Source of the DNA: Methylobacterium oxalidis
GTDB lineage: Bacteria; Pseudomonadota; Alphaproteobacteria; Rhizobiales; Beijerinckiaceae
Direction of reading: 5' to 3'
Assembly: GCF_007992195.1 (NCBI RefSeq)
Contig: NZ_BJZU01000003.1
Span: 124,001-188,000 of the forward strand
Length of the DNA: 64,000 nt
Shown here: positions 9,000-62,359 of the stretch, one piece after another
Numbering within the stretch: position 1 is the first letter of the stretch
Layout of the letters: every line of letters starts with the position of its first letter
Position numbers and translations under genes: made by a program
The notes under the pieces: generated by a model
The model's input: the letters and a program-made list of their open reading frames with translations, nothing else
Databases searched by the model: none
What the model was told of the DNA's origin: nothing

Positions 9000-9635
9000 T
9001 CAGATCTCCGGCAGGCTCCAGTGCCCGCGCGCGGCGTCGTACTCGGATTCCGCGACGAGGCGCGTGCGCTTCCCCGAGACCCCGATCATGACCCAGACGA
9101 GCCAGGCCGAGATGCCCAGGCAGCCGGCGAAGAGGCAGAAGAGCTGGATCGCGAGCGCGTTGCCGAGTTCGTTCGCGGACCGGTACAGGTGGATGTCCAC
9201 GAGCGCCAGCACCGGCGAGACGAGGCAGATCGTGGTGCGCGCCCCGTCGGACCAGAGCCGGAACCGCGTCACGTAGCTCTGGATGCCCTTGCGGTTCGGC
9301 GGCGTGTAGAACCACAAGGGCAGCGCGACCTCGTTGTCGAAGTCGATCCGCTCGTACTGCTTGCAGTAGGCGATGAGCGCGCCGATGATGTAGTCGTTGT
9401 GGCGATACCACATCACGAAGACCGCGGACACGATCGGTATCGCGGCCGCCGGTATCAGTCTCAACTCGCTGTGCTCGCGCGGAATGCTGAAATGCGCCGC
9501 GGTGAGGCCGATCACGGACGCGATGTGATAGACGTTCAGGTTGCTTCTGACCGTCAGCCGGGTCGCGATCTCGGTCCAGGCACCGATATATCGGGTCGCG
9601 GCCGGGATGAGCGGGGTCTTCGCTGGCTCTGGCAT
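9000..9635 (-). CDS. Hypothetical membrane protein
   Basis: 211 residues from ATG 9635. I do not recognise a family. About four hydrophobic segments can be seen: around residues 36-50, 62-78 (LIPAAAIPIVSAVFVMWY), 138-155 and 172-195 (LFCLFAGCLGISAWLVWVMI). The stretch between the second and third (CKQYERIDFDNEVALPLWFYT) is polar and probably cytoplasmic. The gene stands alone between nadA and the sigma factor, with gaps on both sides and no operon partner. Codon use is like the rest of the chromosome, so it is likely a real gene. Confidence 0.6.
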   Translation of the reverse strand: MPEPAKTPLIPAATRYIGAWTEIATRLTVRSNLNVYHIASVIGLTAAHFSIPREHSELRLIPAAAIPIVSAVFVMWYRHNDYIIGALIAYCKQYERIDFDNEVALPLWFYTPPNRKGIQSYVTRFRLWSDGARTTICLVSPVLALVDIHLYRSANELGNALAIQLFCLFAGCLGISAWLVWVMIGVSGKRTRLVAESEYDAARGHWSLPEI

Positions 9636-9912
9636 CTTCGCGCCGCCGTGATGGGCCGAGAATCGGCATTGTAGACGCCGCGACGCGTGCGCGTGACCGC
9701 GTCCGGAACACATTCGCGTTGGGCCGGGTCCGGCGCGGGTACGCGGCGTCGCCCGCCGATCGTCGCGCGCCGGAGGCCGCCGGGCGAGCGCGCGGCGCAA
9801 TCTCCGGCGTCCGGTAACCTATGTTGAGGCAGCCCATTCCCGGCCCGGCAAGATCGCGGACATGAGCCCGGCGGACCTCCGTCCGGTCATGTCCACGGTC
9901 GATTGGAGAGCG

Positions 9913-10650
9913 ATGCCTGACGCCAAGGAACAGGGTGCGACCGCGCTTCTCCCAGCTCCCCTGACCGCCGCGATCCGCACCCATCTCGGCGGCCTCCTGA
10001 AGCGGGCCTACGCCGATTTCACCGCCGCCGCGCCGCCCGACCGGATCGGCGAGCTCATCGCCCGCCTGGAGCGGGCGCTCGCCGAGACGGACGACCGCAA
10101 CGCCCGCGCCTTCAAGGACGGCCTCGTCGAGGCGCTGCCGAGCCTCCAGAGCTTCGCCGTCTCGCTCACCCGAAACCCGACCCGCGCCGACGACCTCGTG
10201 CAGGACACGGTGATGCGGGCCTGGCGCAGCCGGGCGCGGTTCGAGCCCGGCACCAATCTCGGCGCCTGGCTCTTCACGATCATGCGCAATGCCTTCTACA
10301 GCGAGCACCGGCGGCAGGCCCGCGAGGTCGCCGACAGCGAGGGCGACCTCGCCGCGCGGGTGGCCACCGTGCCGAGCCAGACCGGGCACCTCGACCTGCA
10401 GGACGCCCGCGCCGCCCTCGACCGCCTGCCCGCGCCGATGCGCGAGGCGCTGATCCTCGTCACGATCGAGGACATGACCTACGAGGAGGCGGCGGTGGCG
10501 ATGAACTGCCGCGTCGGCACCGTGAAGAGCCGTGTCTGGCGGGCCCGCGACCAGCTCGCGCTCCTCCTCGGCTACAGCGCCGACGAGGTCGGGGCCGACC
10601 GCGTCACCCTCTCGGCCCTCGCAAGCCCGGTGGCGGGCGCCGAGACCTGA
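9913..10650 (+). CDS. Sigma-EcfG family sigma factor with NepR-like N-terminus
   Basis: 245 residues from ATG 9913 (GGAG 4-7 bp upstream); in-frame ATGs at 9889 and 9862 would add 8 or 17 residues. Residues about 15-58 (AAIRTHLGGLLKRAY, PPDRIGELIARLE) match the core of NepR, the anti-sigma factor of the alphaproteobacterial general stress response. Then come sigma region 2 (about 65-130; DDLVQDTVMRAW, GTNLGAWLFTIMRNAF) and region 4 (about 170-232; LPAPMREALILV, EEAAVAMNCRVGTVKSRVWRAR), both of the EcfG type. NepR normally binds EcfG and is titrated by phosphorylated PhyR. A tethered inhibitor would make a self-inhibited sigma factor, perhaps opened by PhyR; this is inference. No phyR is in the window. 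Confidence 0.85.
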   Translation: MPDAKEQGATALLPAPLTAAIRTHLGGLLKRAYADFTAAAPPDRIGELIARLERALAETDDRNARAFKDGLVEALPSLQSFAVSLTRNPTRADDLVQDTVMRAWRSRARFEPGTNLGAWLFTIMRNAFYSEHRRQAREVADSEGDLAARVATVPSQTGHLDLQDARAALDRLPAPMREALILVTIEDMTYEEAAVAMNCRVGTVKSRVWRARDQLALLLGYSADEVGADRVTLSALASPVAGAET

Positions 10651-60323: not shown

Positions 60324-61784
60324 TCAAGCAAGCCCTAATGCGCGGAAGTGCTCGGCCTTCGAGGCTGCCCATGGGTCGTCGGGTGCCGCCTTTTGATAGG
60401 CGCGCAGGAAAGCCGCGGCCTTACCGGTATCGCGGAGCTGCTCGAACACGGCGACGAGGCGCCGGAGGATCGCAGGTTTTCCCGGTATCCTTCGGTTTAG
60501 ATCCATGAGCTGCTCGGCGGCGTCCTCGTACTTCGCATCGAGGGCGAGGATCGACGCATGCTTCAGGAGCAGATCCGGCGCGTCGGGCGTTTCGGCCAGG
60601 CATCGCGCCACAAAGACCCGGGCACGATCCACCTGGCCGACTTCCAAATAGGTCGAGAGCGCCAGGCGCCGCAGCTCGGCTCCTGTGGAAGTCGGTGAGT
60701 CCACGACATCAGGGCGTGCCTCGAGGTCGCGAATGCAATCGAAGTACCGGCCCTCCTGGTACGACGCCTGAACCATGAGAAGGAAGGCCTGGGCATCTCT
60801 CGTGGACTCAAACTCTGCGCGCGCGACGAGCTCCGCGTCGCGGTAGTCTCCTGCTTCGACCAGGCGCACGGCCTGTGTGGACCAATCCTCCCGCAATGCC
60901 TGGGGTATGGCCAGCATGCGCGTTGGAGTGAACTGAAGCTGGGCGCGCCTCACCGCGCGAAACGCGTCCAGCATAGCGTCGATGTTGGGCCATCGTTCCT
61001 CCGGCGCAAGCTTCAGGCAGCGATCAATGTAATCGTCGAGCGGCTGCGACACCGACGAGTTGACCTCGCGTGCACGCGGGAAGGGAACATGACGAGCGAC
61101 CTGGCTCAACGTGTCGTGCGGTAGCCGCGCTGTTACGAGATGGTAGAGCAGTACGCCGAGGCTGTAGACGTCGCACAGGAAGCCGGAGGTTCGATTTTTC
61201 GACAACATCGTCGCTCCTACACTCTCTGGCGCGGAGTACAGGATGGTGCCCCCGTTTTCTCTCGTGCGCGCGTACATGTCCTCGGGCAGGACGCTCGAAC
61301 CGAAGTCGGTAAGCTTCGCGCGGTCAGCGGAGACGAGAATGTTCTGTGGCTTGATGTCGCCGTGGGACATGCCCAGGCGATGCAGGTGAGCACATCCCTC
61401 AAGTACCTGCTCGAAGACACCGAGCAGCTTGTCGTAGCTCGCCACAAAGCCTTCCTCGCCCTTGTCGAGCAGCTGGGCTAGTGTGATGGAGGGGAAGTAC
61501 TCCATCTCGATCACGTACCACTCTCGCTCTGGGGGTACGCGGCCCATCCAGTAAACGTCGACCACGCATGGGTGCGGCAACTGCTCTATGAGCGGGGAGC
61601 CTTCAGCCAACTCCTCGTTTCGCTTTCCTTGTGCCTTTGGGATCTTCACCGCAACGATGGCACCGTCAGTGAGGCGCTGGGCCCGCCACACCCAGCCGTA
61701 AGAGCCGTCGCCGAGACACTCGATCAGCTCGTAGCGTCCGCCGAGGCGACGGTCGGCGCGTGGGACGAAGAACTTGCTCGTCAT
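60324..61784 (-). CDS. Serine/threonine protein kinase with TPR domain
   Basis: 486 residues. The kinase domain (about 15-275) is complete: Gly loop GDGSYGWVWRA, Lys48 in VAVKIPK, catalytic HGDIKPQN (Asp and Asn), DFGSSV, and SAPESVG (APE). The C-terminal half (about 310-480) holds TPR-like helical repeats (EAGDYRDAELVARAEFESTR, LLKHASILALDAKYEDAAEQ) for protein binding. There is no membrane segment. Eukaryotic-like kinases occur in several phage-defence systems (Stk2, PglW/BREX), so a signalling or abortive role is plausible. Its ATG overlaps the previous stop by one base (TGATG), showing tight coupling with the unknown gene and HerA. Confidence 0.9.
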   Translation of the reverse strand: MTSKFFVPRADRRLGGRYELIECLGDGSYGWVWRAQRLTDGAIVAVKIPKAQGKRNEELAEGSPLIEQLPHPCVVDVYWMGRVPPEREWYVIEMEYFPSITLAQLLDKGEEGFVASYDKLLGVFEQVLEGCAHLHRLGMSHGDIKPQNILVSADRAKLTDFGSSVLPEDMYARTRENGGTILYSAPESVGATMLSKNRTSGFLCDVYSLGVLLYHLVTARLPHDTLSQVARHVPFPRAREVNSSVSQPLDDYIDRCLKLAPEERWPNIDAMLDAFRAVRRAQLQFTPTRMLAIPQALREDWSTQAVRLVEAGDYRDAELVARAEFESTRDAQAFLLMVQASYQEGRYFDCIRDLEARPDVVDSPTSTGAELRRLALSTYLEVGQVDRARVFVARCLAETPDAPDLLLKHASILALDAKYEDAAEQLMDLNRRIPGKPAILRRLVAVFEQLRDTGKAAAFLRAYQKAAPDDPWAASKAEHFRALGLA

Positions 61785-62359
61785 CAGTGGCCTCGCCGAA
61801 GAATGTGCTCGAGCCGCAGCCGTCCATCCTGTCCGACACGAACAACGAACTGGTAGAAGAGGAGCCGCGCGACCGGGTTTCCCGGAACGCGTACGCCTCC
61901 CGCGGCACGAAAACCGCCTCGCACAATGTTACGCAGGTTGTCATGGTCGGGCAGCGTCACGATCCCGACGCTCCAGTAGGCCAAGAGCAGCGTCGCGCTC
62001 TCACAGCCCCACCTCTGCTGCGCGAGAAGCAGGGTCTCGACCTTTGGACTGAGATCCTTCTGCTTGCCCGAGTAGCGCTCGAACTCTGCCAGCAGCGACA
62101 CAAGGCGCGTTTGGCGGTCGAACCACACGGAGTCAGATCGTACATCCTCTTCGACGTGAGCGAGCGCGCGTTCGCGCGGTGCCGGCACCTCAGAAACTGA
62201 CGCGAATCCGAGATCGCGGCCTACAGCGGTTAGGAAGGTGCAGCCGAGGCTGTGAACGAGGTGGCCGGCATCGTGCACGCCCCATTCGGTCCACATCGGC
62301 AGATGAGAGGTCGCAGCTTCAATGGTCAGTCGACTCTCCGCGACATTGAGCTCAACCAC
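61784..62359 (-). CDS. Unrecognised protein between HerA and kinase genes
   Basis: 191 residues from GTG 62359 (strong ribosome site GGGGGAGG; TTG 62362 is possible). I do not recognise the family. It is helical in look, with HDAGHLVHSLG near residue 30, EEDVRSDSVWFDRQTRLVSL in the middle, LLLAQQRWGCESATLLLAYW and a C-terminal GNPVARLLFYQFVVRVGQDG. No membrane segment or signal is clear. Its start overlaps the end of the HerA gene and its stop overlaps the kinase start, so it must act with them. A role as adaptor or effector of the HerA/kinase pair is inference only. Confidence 0.6.
   Translation of the reverse strand: MVELNVAESRLTIEAATSHLPMWTEWGVHDAGHLVHSLGCTFLTAVGRDLGFASVSEVPAPRERALAHVEEDVRSDSVWFDRQTRLVSLLAEFERYSGKQKDLSPKVETLLLAQQRWGCESATLLLAYWSVGIVTLPDHDNLRNIVRGGFRAAGGVRVPGNPVARLLFYQFVVRVGQDGRLRLEHILRRGH

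Follow-up and report, generated by a model that had tools for sequence, protein, structure and literature searches.

The window (the whole stretch of 64,000 nucleotides that was analysed) contains a forward-strand open reading frame that starts with the ATG at 9913, has 245 codons and closes with a stop codon ending at 10650. The features of the locus are as follows:

9862..9912, forward strand: possible in-frame longer N-terminus (ATG at 9862 and 9889), poorly conserved (start-codon scan and comparison with the genome G019)
9905..9910, forward strand: Shine-Dalgarno-like GGAGAG before the ATG at 9913 (sequence inspection)
9913..10650, forward strand: gene of a fused NepR-EcfG sigma factor, 245 aa (open reading frame, Pfam sigma regions, G019 orthologue with a methionine at the matching place)
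9961..10095, forward strand: NepR-like domain, residues 17-61, with predicted helices at 19-38 and from 43 on (local NepR profile, AlphaFold2 helices)
10129..10323, forward strand: sigma region 2, residues 73-137 (PF04542, Sigma70_r2, 65.7 bits)
10402..10557, forward strand: sigma region 4, residues 164-215 (PF08281, Sigma70_r4_2, 50.9 bits)

The sigma part is unambiguous, and the gene is taken to encode an EcfG of the ECF15 group that is complete. In similarity to this part, the genome has ten EcfG-type genes that reach at least 128 bits, and the next ECF sigma factor reaches 92.6 bits. The nearest solved chain is that of the Bartonella quintana RpoE, which was crystallised with NepR (5uxx_A, E=4.5e-45, residues 65-219).

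Judging from profile comparisons, the first 61 residues or so are homologous to NepR, and the NepR motif is real, though weak in the window copy. A NepR-like N-terminus joined to a complete EcfG had been put forward in a preliminary description made from the sequence alone; this was borne out, and the genus Methylobacterium was named there correctly. The HMM comparison of the N-terminus with NepR gave a divided answer. Pfam NepR (PF18557) scores residues 1-64 at 12.4 bits (E=0.13) and does not reach its gathering cut-off of 25.7, and no NepR match to these residues was found in NCBIfam. With a local NepR profile, however, the segment scores 18.8 bits (E=5.4e-5 for 1000 sequences), which is beyond chance: among 12,300 shuffles made from 123 N-termini, none exceeded 9.3 bits. 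The 31 NepR matches behind this profile have frames of 75-218 aa and comprise 29 loci found in the family search and the copies on contigs C82 and C158 of the same genome; their stand-alone status was not checked singly. Two EcfG paralogues of the genome, on C15 (31.6 bits) and C66 (27.7 bits), have N-termini that PF18557 scores above its cut-off. The local profile gives 17-41 bits for eight of the nine fused EcfG frames of the genome; the one on C24 is homologous in its extension by alignment, yet scores 3.8 bits as NepR. Rows of the EcfG1 type score 24-43 bits.

Three observations support the start at 9913: the GGAGAG, the methionine at the matching position of the G019 orthologue (95% identical in the sigma part) and the step in dN/dS between the two genes. 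This ratio falls from 1.21 in the stretch upstream of the domain to 0.27 within the domain itself and to 0.09 in the sigma part, and the amino acid identity of the upstream stretch is 35%. In 9733-10119, the in-frame start codons are the ATGs at 9862, 9889 and 9913 and no others; a codon scan from 9916 to 10119 found no in-frame ATG, GTG or TTG. The NepR-like domain can therefore not be skipped by way of a later standard start, and a sigma factor that lacks the domain is not producible from a standard start codon upstream of 10120.

The surroundings of the gene are partly conserved. An oxidoreductase gene lies downstream at about 10778. It also follows the fused gene in G019 and in the Methylobacteriaceae MAG of L174, where nadA precedes the fused gene. 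The window gene, on contig C3, is not located at the phyR locus. The latter is on C82, where a lone nepR adjoins the genome's only strong PhyR match (77.6 bits). A pattern scan of 9500-9913 gave no match to the EcfG-type promoter GAACN15-18SGTT. Across the whole window this pattern occurs 21 times (7.5 expected; none of 100 shuffles reaches 21), a count in which three palindromic sites are included on both strands.

The fusion has already been described. In 2016, Francez-Charlot et al., who refer to a 2009 paper of their own, reported that EcfGs of M. extorquens AM1 carry an N-terminal extension resembling NepR, and called its function 'currently not known' (PMC4814048). AM1 EcfG1 to EcfG6 resemble the window gene in that a NepR-like N-terminal extension of about 55 aa stands in one chain with EcfG. 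They also share with it the lack of an upstream EcfG-type promoter, a position away from the phyR locus and the presence of several paralogues per genome. The number and set of EcfGs vary among Methylobacterium species (PMC4814048). Unlike what is described for AM1, the genome of the window has nine fused copies together with an unfused nepR-ecfG pair.

Two further comparisons can be made. With the canonical alphaproteobacterial nepR-ecfG system (RpoE-NepR, 5uxx; PhyR-NepR, 3t0y) the window protein shares a sigma part that aligns to 5uxx and a domain homologous to NepR. It is, however, one chain instead of two, and the QPVPD loop of NepR is mostly lost in the fused domains. Sigma and anti-sigma factor are also joined in one chain in IutY (ECF243) and in members of ECF36, according to the relevant parts of PMC8999054. 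The anti-sigma portion of IutY is C-terminal, membrane-bound and freed by proteolysis, whereas the domain of the window gene is short and lacks a part of this kind.

NepR-EcfG fusion is a known feature of Methylobacteriaceae, and the window gene is one of nine fused paralogues (C3, the window, and C15, C203, C73, C96, C66, C17, C24 and C223), in all of which the extension is in frame and free of stops. The one unfused nepR-ecfG pair of the genome is on C158. The distribution was followed with a profile of the extension plus sigma region 2 (A2), built from nine rows. Stop-free full-length A2 matches occur in at least 58 of 59 genus genomes; among the matches listed there is none for G057. In seven genus genomes, 33 of the 40 matches with E<=1e-24 are fused and stop-free, and the other seven are unfused, one per genome. 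These counts, and the 3-9 fused copies per genome, are lower bounds, since the best 29 candidates per genome were scored. At least 12 fused EcfGs are present in G019. Six loci (L136, L140, L141, L142, L151 and L161) were missed by the sigma-motif search, are fused by A2 match only and stand outside the profile scoring, the tree, the dN/dS values and the position counts; the tree includes 27 of the 33 fused genes from the seven genomes.

Fused copies are accompanied by an unfused EcfG (E about 1e-32 to 1e-34) in M. brachiatum, M. longum, M. pseudosasicola, M. tarhaniae, WSM2598 and M. phyllostachyos. Methylorubrum rhodinum, zatmanii and suomiense and the L174 MAG hold fused copies, one of them in zatmanii with a TGA within the match, and any unfused match in them is no better than about 1e-19. 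This pattern fits the extended EcfGs of AM1. Both fused and unfused EcfGs are present in Microvirga antarctica, flocculans and arsenatis, and in the family sample fused genes were found in three of five genomes of g32 (Microvirga) and one of two of g36, among the matches listed. For 297 genomes of the order (best 14 candidates scored in each), the sole fused match outside the family, among the matches listed, is that of G471. A class search of 385 genomes at E 1e-33 (best 11 candidates each) gave stop-free full-length matches only in the sample's two Methylobacterium genomes. The search profile was built from Methylobacterium, so that far-off fusions may be missed in the class and order searches.

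A possible route to the fusion is visible in the order. In at least 19 of the 297 genomes, 12 of which were read by eye, nepR and ecfG share a frame with exactly one stop between them; further, named cases include Mesorhizobium and Aminobacter. The stop codon of such an in-frame pair would have been lost before the split of Methylobacterium and Microvirga, and many duplications of the fused gene would have followed. The one-stop pairs indicate a route and are no proof of it, because tandem genes share a frame by chance one time in three.

A tree was made by a quick method from the sigma parts of 100 rows, all of the EcfG type. One of its branches, with a support of 84.6 that is not starred, has 71 of the 72 fused rows on one side. 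The window gene falls in a starred clade of 12 rows with rows of Methylorubrum zatmanii and M. rhodinum. By the tree, a second independent fusion (L091, in G130) seemed likely. The AU test, however, did not reject a tree in which all 72 fused rows form a single clade (p 0.718), and the log-likelihood of that tree is higher by 12.87. As a single clade is not rejected, one or two origins are claimed, and such a number would suffice for the fusion. L100, from G471 of a different family, nests among Methylobacterium rows; it was set aside as a new origin and attributed to transfer or contamination.

As for the function of the extension, a lid that acts in cis is the best guess. With a probability of roughly 0.55, the domain is derived from NepR through loss of a stop codon and acts as a weak, reversible lid in a paralogous EcfG. 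The two helices would rest weakly and reversibly on the NepR-binding face of their own sigma factor. Tethered in this way, the lid would be a competitor of free NepR and, perhaps, of core RNA polymerase. The paralogue would thereby be tuned or insulated from control by NepR and PhyR, and not permanently shut off.

The published experiments concern EcfGs of AM1 and not the window gene. In vitro, NepR was bound by truncated EcfG1 only, and in two-hybrid assays only by EcfG1 and EcfG5 without the extension. EcfG1 has a full-length isoform and one that is shorter by 14 residues; each complements the ecfG sextuple mutant, and both interact with NepR in vivo, as seen by pull-down (PMC4814048). Since the full-length form complements the mutant, EcfG1 is not locked for good, and since both isoforms meet NepR in vivo, the lid is not absolute. 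A reversible lid in cis agrees with all of these results. The idea of a tethered anti-sigma domain that inhibits in cis, raised in the preliminary description, is plausible and in line with the binding by truncated protein only; as a whole, the interpretation given there is partly supported.

The conserved positions were compared in 94 distinct fused rows (from 113) and 31 other NepRs, all aligned to the NepR profile. Core columns are gapped in 8 to 20 of the 94 fused rows, and the percentages refer to the aligned rows. G17 (96%), L20 (100%), Y24 (96%), P33 (81%), R35 (71%), L39 (98%) and L43 (90%) are kept in the fused rows, and I16 of NepR is replaced by Leu in all aligned ones. Other positions are relaxed when compared with the other NepRs: Q30 drops from 90% to 11%, P31 from 100% to 25% and D34 from 90% to 12%. 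The inter-helix loop QPVPDRF is not matched in the window copy, which has AAPPDRI at those columns and retains P33, D34 and R35. At the level of sequence, the helix core is retained in the fused domains and the QPVPD loop mostly is not. The helices that would pack on the sigma fold thus appear to be kept, while the loop, which free NepR needs, perhaps for one partner, appears to be lost. Neither this loop decay nor the one-stop route nor the unfused pair beside the fused set is spelled out in the main-text parts of the open literature, the 2009 paper and supplements aside.

Structure models were made with AlphaFold2. The pTM is 0.41 for the whole protein (45 alignment rows) and 0.42 for the sigma part alone, and the models decide neither for nor against a contact between the domain and the sigma part. 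Helices are predicted at 19-38 and 43-86. With VIA-align, the model could be aligned to 5uxx in sigma region 2 only (82 residues, 1.7 A); it therefore does not show regions 2 and 4 arranged as in the complex with NepR, which counts against the lid. The block means of pLDDT in region 4 are 90-98 with the domain and 80-93 without it, a difference that may stem from the different alignment rows.

The second modelled helix continues straight into sigma region 2, which would also suit a tolerated relic. In this case the extension would be a fusion scar, retained since the old ecfG start was lost, that caps sigma region 2 as an N-terminal helix and has no regulatory role. This explanation is considered unlikely, although several observations speak for it, the decay of the QPVPD loop among them. 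Selection was estimated in 14 pairs of fused genes, which were picked by likeness (L133 occurs in two) and are not all necessarily strict orthologues. The domain dN/dS is 0.06-0.74 and lies below 1 in all 14 pairs, as with the 0.27 of the window gene, which argues against a relic. It is higher than in the sigma part (0.00-0.25) in 12 of the pairs, equal in one and slightly lower in one; this weaker constraint favours a relic and counts against a lid. In the upstream stretch the values are 0.47-1.21 in 12 pairs and not computable in two. For the pairs L015/L122 and L014/L114, the domain is even less identical than the stretch upstream. A clade of four genes, C24 (L017), L124 (G019), L156 (G184) and L159 (G032), has retained the extension with a NepR match of less than 4 bits. 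The loss of NepR likeness in this clade again suits a relic and counts against a lid, as if a helical extension were enough. On the other side, the core leucines and the tyrosine are kept at 90-100%, the extension alters NepR binding in AM1 (PMC4814048), and no copy without extension was seen outside the unfused clade among the 40 best matches in the seven genomes.

It is improbable that the extension binds PhyR, either making the sigma factor responsive to PhyR or soaking up PhyR as a decoy. Some NepR homologues of AM1 do bind PhyR but no EcfG (PMC4814048), and P33, D34 and R35 are kept in the window copy. Against this stands the relaxation of Q30, P31 and D34 in the fused rows as compared with the 31 other NepRs. 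A decoy for PhyR had also been considered in the preliminary description; it found no direct support, and most fused domains have relaxed the loop that hardly varies in other NepRs. Action in trans, where the extension would bind other EcfG paralogues and fused sigma factors would inhibit each other, is very improbable, as tethering should favour cis on general grounds, even though nine fused paralogues coexist in one genome.

NepR-like segments are also found elsewhere in the genome. On C45 (L265:1707-2357, reverse strand; L005) such a domain is joined to a receiver domain (PF00072 41.8 bits; PF18557 21.2 bits, under the cut-off). At least 52 of the 58 genomes of the genus have a match to nearly the whole of this NepR-receiver stretch, and a literature search by title returned no title on such a fusion. 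C61 has a stretch similar to the C45 receiver (61545-61901, forward strand), followed on the same strand by a NepR-like open reading frame of 64 aa (L264:1033-1227, 18.5 bits); these are perhaps the C45 fused pair as two genes. A frame of 791 aa on C27 (L262:3056-5431, reverse strand), read by eye as PAS-PAS-kinase-receiver-receiver, has a NepR-like end segment (21.0 bits, local profile). Finally, C90 holds a small NepR-like open reading frame of 97 aa (L263:998-1291, reverse strand; 30.6 bits, local profile).

A more speculative, rather doubtful view is that the NepR fold is a mobile module. On EcfG it would have shed its loop and turned into a cis lid, blind to PhyR, by which each paralogue is insulated from the common pool of anti-sigma factor; further copies would have come to lie on a receiver domain and on the end of a hybrid kinase.

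If the cis lid is true, one genome would hold nine sigma factors with private inhibitors. This would help to explain how many EcfG paralogues can coexist under one NepR/PhyR switch. In the in-frame nepR-stop-ecfG pairs of other Hyphomicrobiales, the change of a single codon could make one chain out of a switch of two proteins.
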